Source: Ferrimicrobium sp. (GTDB lineage: Bacteria > Actinomycetota > Acidimicrobiia > Acidimicrobiales > Acidimicrobiaceae). Taken from it: a stretch of DNA of 64,000 bases. A program made the position numbers and the translations under genes. Shown piece after piece: positions 2,435 to 64,000 of this stretch. Location: NCBI RefSeq assembly GCF_027364955.1, contig NZ_DAHXOI010000005.1:1-64000 (forward strand), written 5' to 3'. Position 1 is the first letter of the stretch; each line of letters starts with the position of its first letter. Under the pieces are notes generated by a model. It made no database searches, was not told the DNA's origin, and saw nothing but the letters and a program-made list of their open reading frames with translations.

Positions 2435-3268
2435 GTGCCTGAACCGCGCCATGCCCGTCGAGTCGATCATCACTACTTGACCGACCATGCGTATGTGGAT
2501 TCGAGTCGACTTGGGGCCAGGATCGCCATCTATGACTATCAGAGCCCAAAAATCGACCTCGAGGACGAGGTACGTATCGCTTGCGGCCCAGTTCAAGGTC
2601 TCCGCGTCCTTGACGTAGGCAGTGGTAACGGACGTCATGGGCGGACCCTTACCCATGCCGGTGCTCATGTACTTGCCACCGACCTCTCGAAGGGAATGCT
2701 CGACAGTGTGGAGGGTGTCTGGGCCAGAGCTCAGTCCGATGCAGAGGCGCTACCCGTCGCAACTGGCTCCGTTGACCGAGTGCTCGCCGCCCATATGCTC
2801 TACCATCTTCGCCACCCCCAACGCGCCATCGAAGAGTTTGCACGAGTTCTCAACGCAGATGGACGACTAATCGTCACCTCGAATACCGAATCGCACCTCA
2901 TCGAAGCACGGCTGCTCTGGGACGAGCTCCTCGACAACTACGGGCTTGACACGGCCAATTCGGATCTGTCACTGATGAACCTTGAGCTGCCAACTGATCG
3001 CCTGTTGGCAGACGTCCAGCAGCATTTTGTAGACGTCGATTATCACCTTTTGAGCAGCTCCATCATCCTAACGGAGCCAGCAGCGCTCGCCAATTACGCC
3101 GCCTCGACAACGGCAGCGATCACGACCAATGAACTCGGGTACGACCTCTTGCCAGCCTTCGGTGAACGGATTCGCGAACACATCGAATGCGACGGTGAGT
3201 ACCGGCTGACCACCCAGGTCATTCTCATCACCGCGACTGCAAAGCGAACGTCCATCGTCTCGGAATAA
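2435..3268 (+). CDS. Class I SAM-dependent methyltransferase
   Basis: The 277-residue protein has motif I VLDVGSGNGRHG, motif II ATDLSKGML, a motif near RVLAAHMLYHL, and HPQRAIEEFARVLNADGRL, the standard order of Methyltransf_11-like enzymes. I chose the GTG at 2435. It lies 10 nt after the preceding stop and follows a purine-rich GCGAGAG stretch. An ATG at 2357 in the same frame would lie inside the dehydrogenase and would add an untypical basic tail. The substrate is unknown. Co-transcription with the dehydrogenase is likely from the short gap. Confidence 0.8.
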   Translation: MPEPRHARRVDHHYLTDHAYVDSSRLGARIAIYDYQSPKIDLEDEVRIACGPVQGLRVLDVGSGNGRHGRTLTHAGAHVLATDLSKGMLDSVEGVWARAQSDAEALPVATGSVDRVLAAHMLYHLRHPQRAIEEFARVLNADGRLIVTSNTESHLIEARLLWDELLDNYGLDTANSDLSLMNLELPTDRLLADVQQHFVDVDYHLLSSSIILTEPAALANYAASTTAAITTNELGYDLLPAFGERIREHIECDGEYRLTTQVILITATAKRTSIVSE

Positions 3269-32534: not shown

Positions 32535-36351
<3,817 letters not shown>

Positions 36352-36847: not shown

Positions 36848-36922
36848 CATTTGCTCGAAATAATTTGCTCGGAGATACTTTGCTCAGGGATCATTTGTCC
36901 AGGGATAATCGCCTAGCGATAC
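36848..36922. repeat. 15-bp degenerate tandem repeat, five units
   Basis: Units start at 36848, 36863, 36878, 36893 and 36908. Units 2-4 read ATTTGCTCGGAGATA, CTTTGCTCAGGGATC and ATTTGTCCAGGGATA. In one plus frame the tract would read as pentapeptide-like RNNLL-GDTLL-RDHLS-RDN, but no convincing gene encloses it. Confidence 0.8.
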
Positions 36923-37226: not shown

Positions 37227-37271
37227 ATGGTATCGGAGGCTATGGTATCGGAGGCTAAGGTATCGGAGGCT
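37227..37271. repeat. 15-bp tandem repeat upstream of purL, three units
   Basis: ATGGTATCGGAGGCT at 37227 and 37242, then AAGGTATCGGAGGCT at 37257 and the start of a fourth. A separate 10-bp duplication (CGATGGGGCT twice, 37171-37190) lies just upstream. The tract ends about 24 nt before the proposed purL -10 box. Confidence 0.9.
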
Positions 37272-37308
37272 AAGGCTTGAGAGCGCTGCCAGGGTAGGCT
37301 CCTAAAAC

Positions 37309-52172: not shown

Positions 52173-54581
52173 CTAGAGACTGGAGAGCGTATAGCTACCC
52201 GTCATAGCAACCGGAAGGACATATTGGAACGAGTAACCATCGGTCATGAACTGCGTAGCGCTCATGAACTGATAGAGTGTTCCACCATCGCTGACCCAGA
52301 TCCCGGCTGTGCCGAGAGGCTGAACCAGTGTACCGTTAGCACTCGCCGTGGCATTCGTTGGTGTCGAGCCAGAGCCCATGACCACCATTGCGCCAGTCAT
52401 CTTCTGAATCGAAGCGAGCTCGGCTGGTGTAGCGATACCAGTAGCAACGCCACCAGCATACTCATAGATGGTCGAACCGAACTGAACCAATGCACCGTTG
52501 GCCATTGTCGCAGCAGCCGTCGGAGGAGCACCAGCGCCTGCGGTGAGCCCACCTGCGTTAGGAACTGGAATCACCTGACTGGCAACATAACCATCCTTCA
52601 TGAACTGTGACATGGAGGAGAACTGGTAAATCTCACCATTGGTACCAACGACCCAGTAGCCAGAGGTTCCAACAGGGTTGATCAACGTTCCAGCCGCTGG
52701 CATAGGAGCTGTCGGGAAGGTACCTGAAACCACACTGCTGTGATCCATCTTCATAATGTCACCGAACACCGTTGGGGTCGGAATACCAAAGGCATAGCCA
52801 CCCGCAACCACGTCGATCTGGCCCCCAGACTTAATGAGCGCACCGTTAGGATACGTCATGCTAGCCGTCGGCACTGTTGTCACAGGAGCTTGTGCAGCCT
52901 CGATCACTCCGGCATCTGTACTACTAGCTAGGCTAGCCGTATCATTGATATTCGTCGTACTCGGGTTAATGACACCATCAACCGTAAGACTGAACATGTC
53001 TCCAGAAGCCAAGCCATTTGGGAGTTCAATCTCCACCGAATCCGTGCCGCCACCGGATACGATCGATGGATCCGTGAACGAGTCAGACGGAGTCGTCGAA
53101 TCAGTAAGCGTGTAGTCAGGCCCATAGTTCGGGAAGACTGCTCCGCTACTAGCCAACGTAAATGTATCTGTCAATGCGCCACCAGCCAACGCACCATTCG
53201 CCTCTATGTTACTAATGGTCCAGTTCGAGAGGGCTCCAGGCTGACTGTCCGAAGGTGTTACCTGAATCTGGGGCACGGAACTCGCAGCGGCTACCGTCAC
53301 ATTCTGCGTAGCTGGAAGAGTGTCCTCATTGGTAGAGAGACCAACGGAAACCGAACCAGAAGCAGCAAATGTAGCGCTGTACGATACGAGCTGATACTTA
53401 TCTCCGGAAACCGTAGCGGTCGACAGGGTCCATGAATCAGAGGAAGGAGCGCCAAGACTATATTGCACACCCGTCGTCAGGTTCGTAAGGAGATTTGTTG
53501 ACCCTGGAGTGAATCCGCTCACTGTGATGGTATTCGAACCACCAGTATTCGACGTGAAGTCCAGGGTAACATTAGAGGCGACACCCTCGACCGCACCCGG
53601 GGCCGAAGCACTAAACGCATCAACCGAAGTGCCCAAATCCACGGCTCCAGTCACAGCAGTACCGCTTGTCGGTGCATCAATTCCGAAAGTCTGGACACCA
53701 GCACTTCCATTGACAGCATCAGTTACGGTGACGGTCAGCTCATCGCCGCTAGCAATGGAATCTCCACTAGGAAGCGTAAGTACAGCTGCAGCAGTATATG
53801 GAGTGGCGCTGGTGTCAGCCGAGATCTGGACATCACTCGCTGGAATCACAAATGTCTTCCCAGAAGTGTTGTCGACCACCGTATAAGCGCCACTGGTAGT
53901 GAAAGCCCCTTCACCCGCAGAGGTGGTGCTACTATCCGAAATGGTAAGCGTACCTCCGGAAGCAACAGCCGCGCCAGCAGCACCCTCGAACGTCCAGGTG
54001 ACACCCGTATCTGACGGTATAGCCGGATTGGCCGAATCGACAGGAGCGTATCCAGCCGACAAGGTTACCGAATTTGACGTAACCGCATTAGCATCCGTCG
54101 AGGTCGAAACCGTCACAGAAGCGGGGGACGTCGCTGGGTTGGAGACATCTCCAAGCACAACCGTGATTTGATCACCAGCATTCCATGCAAATCCGGGCGT
54201 TAGCGAAACACTTGTGGACGCGTCAGTGGGTGTGATCGATCCGGCAGCAGTCCCTGTCGTATTATCGACAACAGACGTTACGGTTGCCGAACTTAAGCCA
54301 GTACCACCGATGAAAATCTTGTCAGTATCTGTGCCTGCACTCGTTGCCTTGAAAGACACCGTGTACTGGACACCTGTTGCGCTCTCAGTTGAGTTCGTCA
54401 GAGACAAAGAAACCGCCGAGACCGAGGTGGCCGAACCGATAGAAAACGGAGCTGAAGTCAGCGTTGTAGACGCATACGCCGTACCACTCACCGCAAGAAC
54501 CGCGCCGAGCCCACCTGCTGTGAGCGCTGCAGCGCCAGCCATGTTCATCAACCGCCGATACATAGAAGAACGACTATTCAA
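52173..54581 (-). CDS. Large secreted Ser/Thr-rich surface protein
   Basis: The 802-residue protein has a signal peptide (MNSRSSMYRRLMNMAG, then AAALTAGGLGAVLAVSGTAYA) and about 560 residues of beta-rich, Ser/Thr/Val/Gly-rich sequence resembling repeated Ig-like or S-layer modules. Two copies of a C-terminal repeat follow: GTSGYWVVGTNGEIYQFSSM with QFMKDGYVASQVIPVP, and GTAGIWVSDGGTLYQFMSAT with QFMTDGYSFQYVLPVA. Two further segments alternate with them (NGALVQFGSTIYEYAGG). The TTG start is supported by AGGAGG 7 nt upstream; a later ATG (54563) is 25 nt from it. An abundant envelope or S-layer-like protein is plausible but unproved. Confidence 0.78.
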   Translation of the reverse strand: MNSRSSMYRRLMNMAGAAALTAGGLGAVLAVSGTAYASTTLTSAPFSIGSATSVSAVSLSLTNSTESATGVQYTVSFKATSAGTDTDKIFIGGTGLSSATVTSVVDNTTGTAAGSITPTDASTSVSLTPGFAWNAGDQITVVLGDVSNPATSPASVTVSTSTDANAVTSNSVTLSAGYAPVDSANPAIPSDTGVTWTFEGAAGAAVASGGTLTISDSSTTSAGEGAFTTSGAYTVVDNTSGKTFVIPASDVQISADTSATPYTAAAVLTLPSGDSIASGDELTVTVTDAVNGSAGVQTFGIDAPTSGTAVTGAVDLGTSVDAFSASAPGAVEGVASNVTLDFTSNTGGSNTITVSGFTPGSTNLLTNLTTGVQYSLGAPSSDSWTLSTATVSGDKYQLVSYSATFAASGSVSVGLSTNEDTLPATQNVTVAAASSVPQIQVTPSDSQPGALSNWTISNIEANGALAGGALTDTFTLASSGAVFPNYGPDYTLTDSTTPSDSFTDPSIVSGGGTDSVEIELPNGLASGDMFSLTVDGVINPSTTNINDTASLASSTDAGVIEAAQAPVTTVPTASMTYPNGALIKSGGQIDVVAGGYAFGIPTPTVFGDIMKMDHSSVVSGTFPTAPMPAAGTLINPVGTSGYWVVGTNGEIYQFSSMSQFMKDGYVASQVIPVPNAGGLTAGAGAPPTAAATMANGALVQFGSTIYEYAGGVATGIATPAELASIQKMTGAMVVMGSGSTPTNATASANGTLVQPLGTAGIWVSDGGTLYQFMSATQFMTDGYSFQYVLPVAMTGSYTLSSL

Positions 54582-55156: not shown

Positions 55157-57637
55157 TCACGAAATCACCAACTCATCCCCCACCCCATCGACGGTGATCG
55201 TCGACCCCTCTGGGTACTTCCCCGACAGGATCGCAACCGCCACCGGGTCGCCCACCATCTTCTGGATCACCCGCTTCAAGGGTCGAGCTCCGAACGCTGG
55301 ATCATACCCCTGGGTCACCAGAATCCGCTTGGCATCATCGGTGACCATGAGTTCGAGTCGACGATCAGCTAACCTTCGACGCAGTGCATCGAGCTGGATG
55401 TCGACGATCTTCGTGAGGTCTGCCTCGGTGAGTGATACAAAGCGGATGATCTCATCGATCCGGTTCACAAACTCCGGTTTGAAGAAGAGCCTCGGATCCT
55501 CCGCCAGGTTCGATGTCATGATCAAAATGGTGTTGGTGAAGTTCACCACCCGGCCCTGGCCATCGGTCAAGCGACCATCGTCCAAGATGGCAAGGAAGAT
55601 GTTAAAGACATCCGAGTGCGCCTTCTCGATCTCGTCAAAGAGAATCACGCTGTAGGGGCGCCGCCTTACCGCCTCGGTGAGCTGTCCACCCTCGCCGTAG
55701 CCGACGTATCCCGGAGGCGCACCGACAAGGCGTGCCACCGCATGGCGCTCCTGGTACTCGGACATGTCGATTCGAATGACGGCGCGTTCATCGTCGAAGA
55801 GGTACTCTGCCAACGCCTTGGCCATCTCGGTCTTACCGACACCAGTTGGACCCAGGAAGAGAAAACTCCCGATCGGCCGGTGTGGATCGGAGAGTCCCGC
55901 ACGCGAGCGCCGAATGGCGTTGGCGACCGCTGAGACCGCCTGCTCTTGGCCGATGACCCGTTGATGCAGGGCATCCTCGATATGGAGCAGCTTCTCCATC
56001 TCACTCTCTAAGAGCTTGGAGACCGGAATGCCGGTCGCCTTAGCTACTACCTCTGCAATGTCCTCTGGGTCGACCTCCTCCTTTAACATCCTCACCCCAC
56101 CCTGGAACTCAGCGAGTTGCCGGGTAGCCTCGTCGATCTGTCGTGAGAGCTCGGGAACCTGACCATAGCGGATCTCTGCCGCACGATCGAGATTGCCGAT
56201 GCGCTCGTGATTGTCGGCTTCGGCCTTCAACTGTTCGAGTCGCTCCTTCATCTCGCGAATCTTGCCGATCGAGTCGCGCTCGAGTTGCCACTGGGCATTG
56301 AGCGCGGCGAGCTCCTCCCGATCGTCGGCCAGTTCGCGTTCGATCCGACCGAGCCTCTCCACCGAGGCGGCGTCGCTCTCCTTAGCGAGCGAGATCCGCT
56401 CGATCTCAAGTTGGCGAATACGCCGCTCGACGGTATCGACCTCGCTTGGACGAGAGTCGATCTCCATCCGGAGTTTGGCGGCGGCCTCATCGATGAGGTC
56501 GATGGCCTTGTCAGGGAGGAAGCGGTTGGTCACATAACGATCCGAGAGGACCGCAGCCGCTACGAGGGCCGAGTCCTGGATGCGCACCCCATGGTGGACC
56601 TCGTAGCGCTCCTTCAGACCTCGCAGAATCCCAATCGTATCCTCGACCGAGGGAGGCGGGATGATGAGCTGTTGGAACCGACGCTCGAGGGCCGGATCCT
56701 TCTCGATATACTTGCGATACTCATCGAGGGTTGTCGCCCCGATCATCCTCAACTCACCACGGGCAAGCATTGGCTTTAACATGTTGGAGGCGTCCATGGA
56801 ACCCTCGGCGGCCCCAGCACCCACCACGGTGTGCATCTCGTCGATGAAGGTGATGACCTCACCGTTGGAGTCCTTGATCGCCTTGAGGACCGCCTTTAGG
56901 CGCTCCTCGAACTCACCACGGTACTTCGCACCTGCCACCATGGAACCAAGATCCAAAGCGATCAACCGCTTGTTCTTCAACCCCTCGGGAACATCGCCCT
57001 CGACGATTCGCTTGGCCAACCCCTCGACGATGGCGGTCTTGCCAACACCTGGCTCACCGATGAGCACTGGGTTGTTCTTGCTCCGACGTGAAAGGATCTG
57101 GATGATCCGCCGGATCTCCTCGTCCCGCCCGATCACAGGGTCGATCTTGCCCGCACGCGCGTCAGCTGTCAGGTCGCGTCCGTACTTCTCTAACGCCTGG
57201 AGTGTCTCCTCCGGGTTCTCGCTCGTGACTCGGTTGTCCCCACGGATCTCACGCAACGCGGTCTTGATCTGTTCAGCGGTCACCCCGAACACGGTGGGTA
57301 ACTGGATCAAGAGATGCTCGACCGAGAGATAGGAGTCTCCCAACTCCTGGCGGGTCTTGTCGGCTGCCTCAAGGACCGCGATCAACGCGCCTGAGAACTG
57401 CGCCTGGCTGCCATAGGCCTTGGGTAGCTTTGCGATCGCCTCCAAGAGCTTGGTCCTCGCCGCCCCGATCTGGACACCCAGACGTTCCAGGATTGGCAGG
57501 GCGATCCCATCGGGTTGTCCAAGGAGCGCGACCGCAAGGTGCTCCTTGGTCACCTCCGGATTCGAACTCCGCCTCGCCAGCTCAACCGCTGCCTCGATCG
57601 CCTCGCGGGTCTTAACGGTCCATGTACTCTGATCCAT
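55157..57637 (-). CDS. clpB: ATP-dependent disaggregase ClpB
   Basis: The 826-residue Hsp100 protein works with DnaK/DnaJ/GrpE to dissolve aggregates. It has an N-domain (1-145), AAA-1 with [18 protein letters not shown] and [12 protein letters not shown], the middle coiled-coil propeller (about 400-520), and AAA-2 with [39 protein letters not shown] and FDEIEKAH. It is shorter than usual ClpB because the segment after ILIMTSN is cut down: only about six residues (LAEDPR) separate TSN from the [13 protein letters not shown] strand, where most family members have 20 or more. GAGGTGA stands before the ATG. Confidence 0.94.
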
Positions 57638-58233
57638 TGTTCACCTCATCCTCTGTACTCGTAACGACTTCATCTACTTGTTTGTCTCGTTCATACTCTT
57701 CTTGGCATCACTACTCTGAACACCACCACCAGCCCGTTGAACTAGTATTGGTTCCCACGACCCAGAGTCGCTGACCCCGAGCCCGCATCTGCGCTTCTCA
57801 TCACGCGATGTAGCCGGGTGCTCTCCGTCTCCTTTGAAGCCAGAATCCCCCTCTCAACGAAGCTGGATTCCCCACGGTAGAACACAAGGCTTCGCATCTC
57901 TCGTGCACTGTCACCCACCGATGACATATGGGTAATGCCGACGTTGGCTCTTTGCCAGGAACCGTTACCAGAGCGCTCGATCACTCTATTATTATGCAAC
58001 ATCACCGCGCAGGAGCCTCCATGGAACCGAGCTGCTCGGTTCGAGCAAGCTCATCCAAGCTGACCGATCCAAACCGAGGGTGTCGCGCAGGCGGTGTCTT
58101 GGCAATAATGTGTGACTGGTTGGATCGAGATAATGACATCGCTAGCCAAGCTACGCCCCCAGTAGCCAGTGCTCCTCGGATCTCGCTGAGTGCCTTCCCC
58201 AAATGCCACAAGGTCAGATTACGCGTATCCATC

Positions 58234-58413
58234 GTTCCACCTCTTACGGTGTGATCTCTCACCCAATGGTCCCTTACCGTATCGCCTCTCACCGTATCGT
58301 CTCCAAACAGGTTGCCTGTACTGTACTGCACTGTCTTGCATTGTGCTGTCTTGCGCTGCACCATCTTGCATTGTGCTGTCTCTCAACATGTTGCCTCTCA
58401 TCAGCCCTCCGAT
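58234..58413. repeat. 15-bp degenerate tandem array, about 12 units
   Basis: Phase is exactly 15 from 58234 to 58413. Representative units: GTATCGCCTCTCACC (58279), GTATCGTCTCCAAAC (58294), TACTGCACTGTCTTG (58324), CATTGTGCTGTCTTG (58339), CGCTGCACCATCTTG (58354) and CATTGTGCTGTCTCT (58369). Neighbouring units are more alike than distant ones, as expected for local slippage or unequal crossing-over followed by mutation. There are no spacers, so this is not a CRISPR. Confidence 0.85.
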
Positions 58414-58850
58414 GCCCACTTCTGTCGATAAGAAATCCGAACAACGTTTCCCGCACCCTCCTTCGACCTCGTATCTCTCGGCGCAGCGAGGTGAGTGTTT
58501 CTCAGGCTTGCTCTCATCTGTTATGCCCATGGTGGTGCCATAATGAACTCGTCACCTCGTTATCTCGCACCGACGATTGGCGTGCTCTCAGCCTCGAAGA
58601 ACCTCCGCCCCATGACCGATATGGCATCACTGCGTTCTTACCGCCACATCCCGCGATCCAGGTTTTCTGCCTTGGTGCCTCTGTCTCATGTTCACTCCCC
58701 CAAGACTCCGTATGCAACGGGCAGGTTGGCCCCAAGTGCTTAGCAATCTGTGTTCCTTGCCGGCAAGCACACCATGGCTCGACACCGTTGTTCCTGGCCG
58801 ACTCAGCACTAGCGCAGAGTCCTGGCATATCCCAATCTCCGGGTACCTTA

Positions 58851-58882
58851 TTATTGCTAAGCTTGATTATTGCTAAGCTTGT
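58851..58882. repeat. 16-bp direct duplication
   Basis: TTATTGCTAAGCTTGA at 58851-58866 is repeated at 58867-58882 with a single final difference. It lies in the non-coding interval before hspR. Confidence 0.85.
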
Positions 58883-59189
58883 TTTGCGTCATACCATCTC
58901 CGGCAATGCCCCTCGCATCCACATATGGGCCAGATCCCGGGATCGGAGTGTTCCCGCGTGTTAGCCTCCCCGCGAAAAACCTCCGGCGAAGCAATGAACA
59001 AACCCATTGAACACGTCTTCAATACCCTGCCTTCGTTGAGCCACCCTTCCGATCCTTAACCTCTCACTGGCTGGCATCCTTGTCGTCCGACACCACGACA
59101 TCTCACGCGCCTGACTCTTGTCCTCGTCTCGGCTTGCGCCCCCTACCGCCTGGGTTCACACCCGCGCGGTAGGCGACCAAATCTGATCC

Positions 59190-59615
59190 CTAGCGACGGA
59201 TCTGGGTGCTCTTCACATGAACCACCGCCTGGGAAAGCGGAACGAGATCACGCCGGTAATGACGATGGATCTCCTTCTCACGAAGACGTGCCAGTTCTCG
59301 CTCGCGTTCGAGTTCGGCTCTGAGCTCAGCGACCTCAGCCTCTAGCTCAATCACCCGACGCACACCCTCGATGTTGAGACCCGCATCGGTCAACTCTGCG
59401 ATGCGTCGCAGCCGTGCGAGATCGTGTTCGCTATAACGCCTTGAGCCGCCCCCGGTACGGTTTGGTTCAAGCAAACCCCGTCGTTCATAGACCCGTAAGG
59501 TCTGAGGGTGCATGCCAGCGAGCTCGGCAGCCACCGAGATCACATACACCCCCCTCCCGATGGCGGCACCCTCGAAGGCGCCGCGCCTGGCCTGGCCTTC
59601 GATATCACTTACCAT
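59190..59615 (-). CDS. hspR: HspR, MerR-family heat-shock repressor
   Basis: The 141-residue repressor has a MerR-type helix-turn-helix (ISVAAELAGMHPQTLRVYER, then RRGLLEPNRTGGGSRRYSEH) and a C-terminal coiled coil (EAEVAELRAELERERELARL). HspR binds HAIR sites with DnaK as co-repressor and shuts off chaperone genes. It is the last gene of the dnaK-grpE-dnaJ-hspR operon, the usual actinobacterial order, 7 nt after dnaJ. The ATG is preceded by AGAGG; initiation at a later codon near VYVISVAAEL is possible. Confidence 0.93.
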   Translation of the reverse strand: MVSDIEGQARRGAFEGAAIGRGVYVISVAAELAGMHPQTLRVYERRGLLEPNRTGGGSRRYSEHDLARLRRIAELTDAGLNIEGVRRVIELEAEVAELRAELERERELARLREKEIHRHYRRDLVPLSQAVVHVKSTQIRR

Positions 59616-63414: not shown

Positions 63415-63435
63415 CTTGAGTGTAAGTATATCAAG
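63415..63435 (-). promoter_or_regulatory. HAIR-like HspR operator overlapping the dnaK -10 box
   Basis: CTTGAGT (63415-63421), 7 nt, then TATCAAG (63429-63435). The known HspR consensus is CTTGAGT-N7-ACTCAAG, so the left arm is exact and the right arm matches five of seven. On the minus strand a TATACT hexamer (63430-63425) lies inside the site, so bound HspR would block RNA polymerase. The start codon is about 40 nt downstream. Confidence 0.82.
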
Positions 63436-64000
63436 TTTTACTACATCCTACCCATCAGCTTTATTCCAAAACCTTGAAGAAAGGTCTTTAGTCCCCTCGC
63501 GACCCGCACAGAACCGGGACTGGCCCTGCTCAGAACCCAGCCGCTTGGGATGATCGACCCTCAAAGACCCCCGGCGGAGCCTCTCTGAAAAGTACCGCGG
63601 AGCCTCTCTGAAAAGTACGGCGGAGCCTCTCTCGAACGCATGATGGTGCGCCCTGGCAAGGCCCAGATCCACCCCCACGCCCTTGGATAGCGCATTCGCA
63701 TGGTGGAAAGATAACATGAGGACAGCTGAAGAGCCAGTTCGCACCTGGCTCTAGATGGCCATCACCGAGGCCCGATCCACTGAACCCCCGACGAGAACAG
63801 GCGGGTCCCTCCTATCCTCCAACAATGGCCGGTGTCAACGGCGTTACCTATTGCCTGGGTTCCGGTATTGGCAGGGCCAAGAGACGCGCGATGCTGGGAC
63901 AGCCCTCGCAAAAGAGGCATGCGCAGCGCAAGAGCATCGTACTGATCTGCCATGTTTTGCCAAGAGTCGGCGGTAGCCTCACCTAGGCCGGCAAGTGATG
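63436..64000. other. Region upstream of dnaK, no supported gene
   Basis: Besides the 23-bp repeat I see nothing I can name. A 73-codon plus-strand frame (63755-63976) and a 98-codon minus-strand frame across the repeat have no family features. Confidence 0.35.
63575..63637. repeat. 23-bp tandem repeat, three units
   Basis: CGGAGCCTCTCTGAAAAGTA begins units at 63575 and 63598. A third unit at 63621 keeps the first 12 bases and then diverges. It lies upstream of the dnaK operon, outside any supported gene. Confidence 0.85.

Follow-up and report, generated by a model that had tools for sequence, protein, structure and literature searches.

The hspR–clpB Spacer

The window analyzed here, a 64,000-nucleotide stretch of a 189-kb contig, belongs to the 3.08-Mb genome of an acid-loving actinobacterium of the genus Ferrimicrobium. 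It carries a heat-shock cluster whose minus-strand order is dnaK, grpE, dnaJ, hspR, a 1552-bp gap, and clpB, with the gene names assigned from sequence and operon context. The upstream neighbor of the gap, hspR (59190–59615, minus strand), encodes a MerR-type heat-shock repressor, and the downstream neighbor is clpB (55157–57637, minus strand); both are delimited by their open reading frames and their orthologues. Beside clpB lies a gene (52173–54581) for an 802-residue Ser/Thr-rich, secreted-looking protein that is possibly a surface protein.

The non-coding spacer between hspR and clpB (57638–59189) is enlarged. In five genomes of the genus, the gap measures 663, 964, 1192, 1552, and 1699 nt, against 43–123 nt in four family members outside the genus. 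In a wider set of 61 loci, where the gap was counted from the point at which the aligned hspR core ends, it is shorter than 225 nt in 48 and longer than 700 nt in the remainder. Literature searches found no paper on the hspR–clpB spacer. Those segments of the spacer that can be aligned with the sister species (genome G001) are 72.6, 69.9, 63.7, and 70.5% identical, while identity at four-fold sites is 66.9% for clpB and 70.5% for hspR. By these values, the spacer drifts about as fast as silent sites. Against a further congener, G004, the spacers are unalignable although four-fold identity in clpB is 0.653. The same spacer also holds a fresh 16-bp tandem duplication at 58850–58881, in which ATTATTGCTAAGCTTG occurs twice with 100% identity.

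Structure of the Tandem Array

A degenerate tandem array occupies 58234–58413 of the spacer. Identity at a lag of 15 nt is 0.57 over this interval, against a mean of 0.277 (sd 0.035) in dinucleotide-shuffled sequence, and none of 1000 shuffles reaches 0.57 at any lag from 5 to 60. Identity is high at lags of 30 and 45 too, and slightly raised at multiples of 5. The top-scoring segment, 58239–58403, has a lag-15 identity of 0.593 and a score of 45, compared with at most 17.6 in 500 shuffles. A sequence-only reading of the window had placed a tandem array here, between clpB and hspR, and had proposed comparison with shuffled sequence as a check on its periodicity; the array passes that comparison by a wide margin.

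The same reading described twelve consecutive units in strict 15-nt phase that differ by point changes only. Tandem repeats of about 15 nt are real, but they form two sub-arrays, of six and five units, that share one ancestral unit and lie 4 nt out of register. On the sense strand, which is the minus strand, the combined consensus of both sub-arrays is GAGAGACAGCACAGT, simplified to GAGAGRCAGCACAGY. Sub-array 1 (58310–58399) is defined by its unit table and its lag-15 signal and has a sense consensus of about GCAAGACAGCACAAT; from 58399 down to 58310, its six degenerate units read GAGAGGCAACATGTT, GAGAGACAGCACAAT, GCAAGATGGTGCAGC, GCAAGACAGCACAAT, GCAAGACAGTGCAGT, and ACAGTACAGGCAACC. Sub-array 2 (58231–58305), identified by profile comparison, has a sense consensus of about GAGAGACGATACGGT, and its five degenerate units, from 58305 down to 58231, read TGGAGACGATACGGT, GAGAGGCGATACGGT, AAGGGACCATTGGGT, GAGAGATCACACCGT, and AAGAGGTGGAACGAT. 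Between them, the 4-nt phase break (58306–58309) is placed by the profile offset and the unit starts.

Register was assessed with 15-column profiles of both array halves and of the corresponding array in the sister species. The two halves match best at an offset of 11 of 15 columns rather than at 0, and each of the three profiles scores the others far best in a single register. Column permutations match as well in at most 1.1% of cases in three comparisons (with the sister species or between halves) and in 6.7% in one. The minus-strand pentapeptides DTVRG and STMQD that had been read from the array both occur, but in different frames because the sub-arrays are 4 nt out of register.

Identity between units of this genome is about 0.56 for neighbors and falls to 0.38 and 0.33 at separations of four and five units, with a partial rise at larger separations that involves few pairs only. 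Purine and pyrimidine positions are well preserved among the units (RY identity 0.76–0.82); transitions dominate in the non-repeat flanks as well. When the array was compared with its own genome, the matches were the array itself and chance-like pieces only, and a comparison with plasmids gave no match. The unit is not a dispersed element, since neither GAGAGGC nor CAGCACA is enriched in spacers elsewhere.

Coding Potential

A period of 15 nt equals five codons, and open frames do run across the array, up to 272 codons long here and, on the opposite strand, 235 in the sister species; on the minus strand, the homologous frame is partly open in each species. These features invite the view that the tract is a gene, intact or decayed, for a repeat protein of the pentapeptide type; the sequence-only reading had offered the decayed form as an instance of selection for a 5-codon unit. 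The pattern of substitution speaks otherwise. In the four segments aligned with the sister species, substitutions at the three positions modulo 3 number 21/19/21, 9/17/15, 21/18/19, and 5/14/7, the last of these uneven but short at 88 sites. Gaps in the spacer alignment include lengths of 1, 10, 11, and 13 nt, which are not multiples of three and thus break the frame, and within the array the 4-nt phase shift itself switches frame. A Pfam profile search of all frames through the array returned no family above cut-off, pentapeptide families included, and no purifying selection is apparent on an open frame.

This genome and the sister have their longest frames on opposite strands, and shuffling at this composition often yields long open runs. 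One 253-residue plus-strand frame through the array (58203–58964) was considered as a gene and judged spurious from stops in the sister species, the lack of a Pfam match, and shuffle lengths. The matching stretch of the sister genome holds three stops and so lacks this frame, and in length the open run approaches the upper tail of the shuffles. Its coding score was 52 when it formed part of the training set and fell to 11 after retraining without it. The earlier description of the DNA as apparently non-coding is therefore borne out by the even substitutions, the frame-breaking indels, and the absence of the 253-residue frame from the sister. A pentapeptide gene, already largely refuted by the codon-position comparison and further contradicted by the phase breaks of 4 nt here and 16 nt in the sister species, would be an exceedingly improbable explanation of the tract.

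Counterparts in Related Genomes

In the sister species, the corresponding place carries, on the same strand, an array of about 11 copies of this unit. Its phase breaks include steps of 16 and 52 nt, and three adjacent copies are identical, a sign of recent duplication. Mean unit identity is 0.484 within this genome, 0.494 within the sister species, and 0.475 between them. A clear array occurs in the sister species only among the congeners, but the spacers of G003 and G004 contain short tracts with 16-bp steps and unit-like sequence on the same strand. Set against the genome background, unit matches across the genus looked strong (expected numbers of 0.011, 0.020, and 0.064) but weakened once spacer composition was controlled, to p values of 0.025 for G003, 0.064 for G004, and, weakly, 0.17 for G002 (0.012 combined). 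Such unit-like sequences could represent an old array or a conserved motif, and the tracts in G003 and G004 offer a weak hint that they are the same unit.

A cis-regulatory array, in which the units would be DNA sites or repeated elements in a transcribed hspR–clpB leader that tunes clpB, might be expected from a tract lying between a repressor gene and clpB, from the related same-strand unit in two species, and from the weak matches in the spacers of other congeners. Per-column conservation, however, shows no agreement between this genome and the sister species (Spearman −0.42, p 0.12), and no column of the unit is conserved in both. The two consensus sequences share 9–10 of 15 letters against a four-fold identity of 0.67, which is no better than neutral, and successive 15-bp units would fall on different faces of the helix.

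The known operator of the regulon lies elsewhere. A search for CTTGAGT-N7-ACTCAAG with at most three mismatches found no HAIR site within 57638–59189; the only one of the region is upstream of dnaK, a HAIR-like HspR operator at 63415–63435 (minus strand) with two mismatches. Its 21 letters are all identical in G001, G003, and G004, making four species with this one. This identity across congeners shows how a constrained element looks at this depth of divergence, and the array displays nothing comparable. The RNA fold is not unusually stable relative to shuffles (z −0.30), an Rfam search gave no match at E values up to 1, and scans found no terminator and promoter-like sites at chance number. 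The protein-binding array that the sequence-only reading had also entertained thus gains no positive evidence, given that columns disagree between species, the spacer changes at the four-fold rate, and HAIR occurs only at dnaK. A regulatory role of the array is unsupported by these sequence comparisons, and a cis-regulatory array appears improbable, if less remote than a pentapeptide gene.

Tandem Duplications across the Genome

Tandem arrays are frequent in this genome. Tandem Repeats Finder (TRF), which misses short periods with few copies, was applied to 104 kb of intergenic sequence drawn from 864 kb sampled in stretches of the 3.08-Mb genome. It reported 44 arrays of many different sequences, compared with nine in five shuffled sets together. 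Periods of 13–18 bp account for 30 of the 44 arrays, and the period is exactly 15 in 11 of these 30, more than a flat spread would give (p 0.007). The density of 14–18-bp arrays is 2.68 per 10 kb here; four congeners range from 0.69 to 1.45, two relatives farther away have 1.16 and 1.57, and E. coli K-12 has 0.71. This genome exceeds the rest of its genus 2.6-fold (p 0.002) and E. coli 3.8-fold (p 0.011), but its excess over the order-level relative G041 is not significant (p 0.12).

Three other 15-bp arrays, of unrelated sequences, lie in the window at 35416–35447 (2.1 copies), 36849–36909 (4.1), and 37229–37275 (3.1); two occupy the upstream spacer of a purL-like gene, and the third occupies the preceding spacer. 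Upstream of dnaK, 63574–63632 holds a 23-bp tandem repeat (2.6 copies, 97%) with the sense start AGAGAGGCTCCGC. The region upstream of dnaK in G003 (locus L121, about 3100–3210) carries an 8-bp unit repeated about ten times with hardly a change, (GATGACGC)n, which indicates that such arrays arise readily. At the edge of the window, positions 1–488 contain a 153-bp tandem repeat (3.2 copies, 92%) within a long open frame, encoding a 51-residue repeat of the GGYWLVAADGGVFDFG type.

These counts bear on the last suggestion of the sequence-only reading, a mutational process with a fixed 15-nt step. Of the mechanisms it proposed, this one fits the evidence best, except that the step varies; it is spread over 13–18 bp with a mode at 15, and is 16 in the related tract of another congener. 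A genome-specific process that favors steps near 15 bp and has the array as its largest product would draw on the 30 intergenic arrays at 13–18 bp, the 11 at exactly 15, and their greater density here than in the rest of the genus and in E. coli. Against it stand the breadth of the peak and the comparison with G041. Moreover, the number 15 is a multiple of three, and coding repeats missed by the home-made gene calls that set the intergenic limits may inflate the mode; TRF is blind to short, low-copy periods, and the tests of period and density were made after the data were seen. Aggregate lag autocorrelation over the spacers reflects mainly leftover coding 3-periodicity, with no strong genome-wide 15-nt rhythm. 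Such a process is a possible but rather unlikely explanation. A slightly more doubtful pairing would have the spacers of this species molded by a duplication process that prefers steps near 15 bp and is more active here than in congeners, with the array as its longest product, or, less likely still, would make the GAGAG-rich units an old, conserved clpB leader element throughout the genus.

Origin and Significance of the Array

Very probably, the tract is a non-coding, degenerate minisatellite that arose by local tandem duplication and drift within a spacer free of constraint. We infer that a short hspR–clpB spacer lengthened and lost constraint in the ancestor of the genus or of two of its species. 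A stretch of about 15 bp within it would then have undergone several rounds of tandem duplication, with replication slippage or unequal recombination as the presumed mechanism, and the copies would have diverged, mainly by transitions and small indels. Among the later changes, one of 4 nt may have put the two halves of the array out of register, and local re-duplication would have gone on in the sister species. The fall of unit identity with separation and the identical neighboring copies of the sister species fit such stepwise local duplication followed by drift; points against this account are the flatter relation between identity and distance in the sister array, the preserved purine/pyrimidine pattern of the units, and the unit-like sequences in the spacers of G003, G004, and, weakly, G002. 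Most likely, the array has no sequence-specific function beyond that of a spacer.

The array is ordinary in kind, though not wholly trivial, given that a second species shares the unit at this place and that the genome's tandem duplications have a modest 15-bp mode. The locus offers a small natural example of an operon spacer that became more than tenfold longer within one genus and then drifted at the rate of silent sites, in the same region as an operator unchanged to the letter. Above all, it cautions that raw sequence may show a clear 15-nt rhythm without containing codons or binding sites. Should the 15-bp mode persist when whole genomes are counted, it would be informative about how slippage or repair works in this acidophile.

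Comparison with Known Repeat Systems

HAIR operators of HspR belong to the same gene cluster, dnaK-grpE-dnaJ-hspR-clpB, but HAIR is an inverted repeat, whereas the array is built of direct units that lack its sequence; in this region, the HAIR-like sequence is the one at 63415–63435. Genes of pentapeptide repeat proteins share the 15-nt coding period, but the array is without a coding signature, a profile match, or the A(D/N)LXX pattern.

The closest parallel is with bacterial minisatellites, the VNTR loci used in MLVA typing, whose units of 10–60 bp stand head to tail in spacers and change in copy number or sequence between relatives, with recent identical copies in one lineage. The array likewise consists of tandem units in this size range above chance expectation, lies in non-coding DNA, and differs between related lineages (six plus five units here and about 11 in the sister species, with one genome per species compared). 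Unlike typical VNTR loci, it consists of units that have diverged strongly and do not share one register, and it is therefore probably too degenerate to be hypervariable now.
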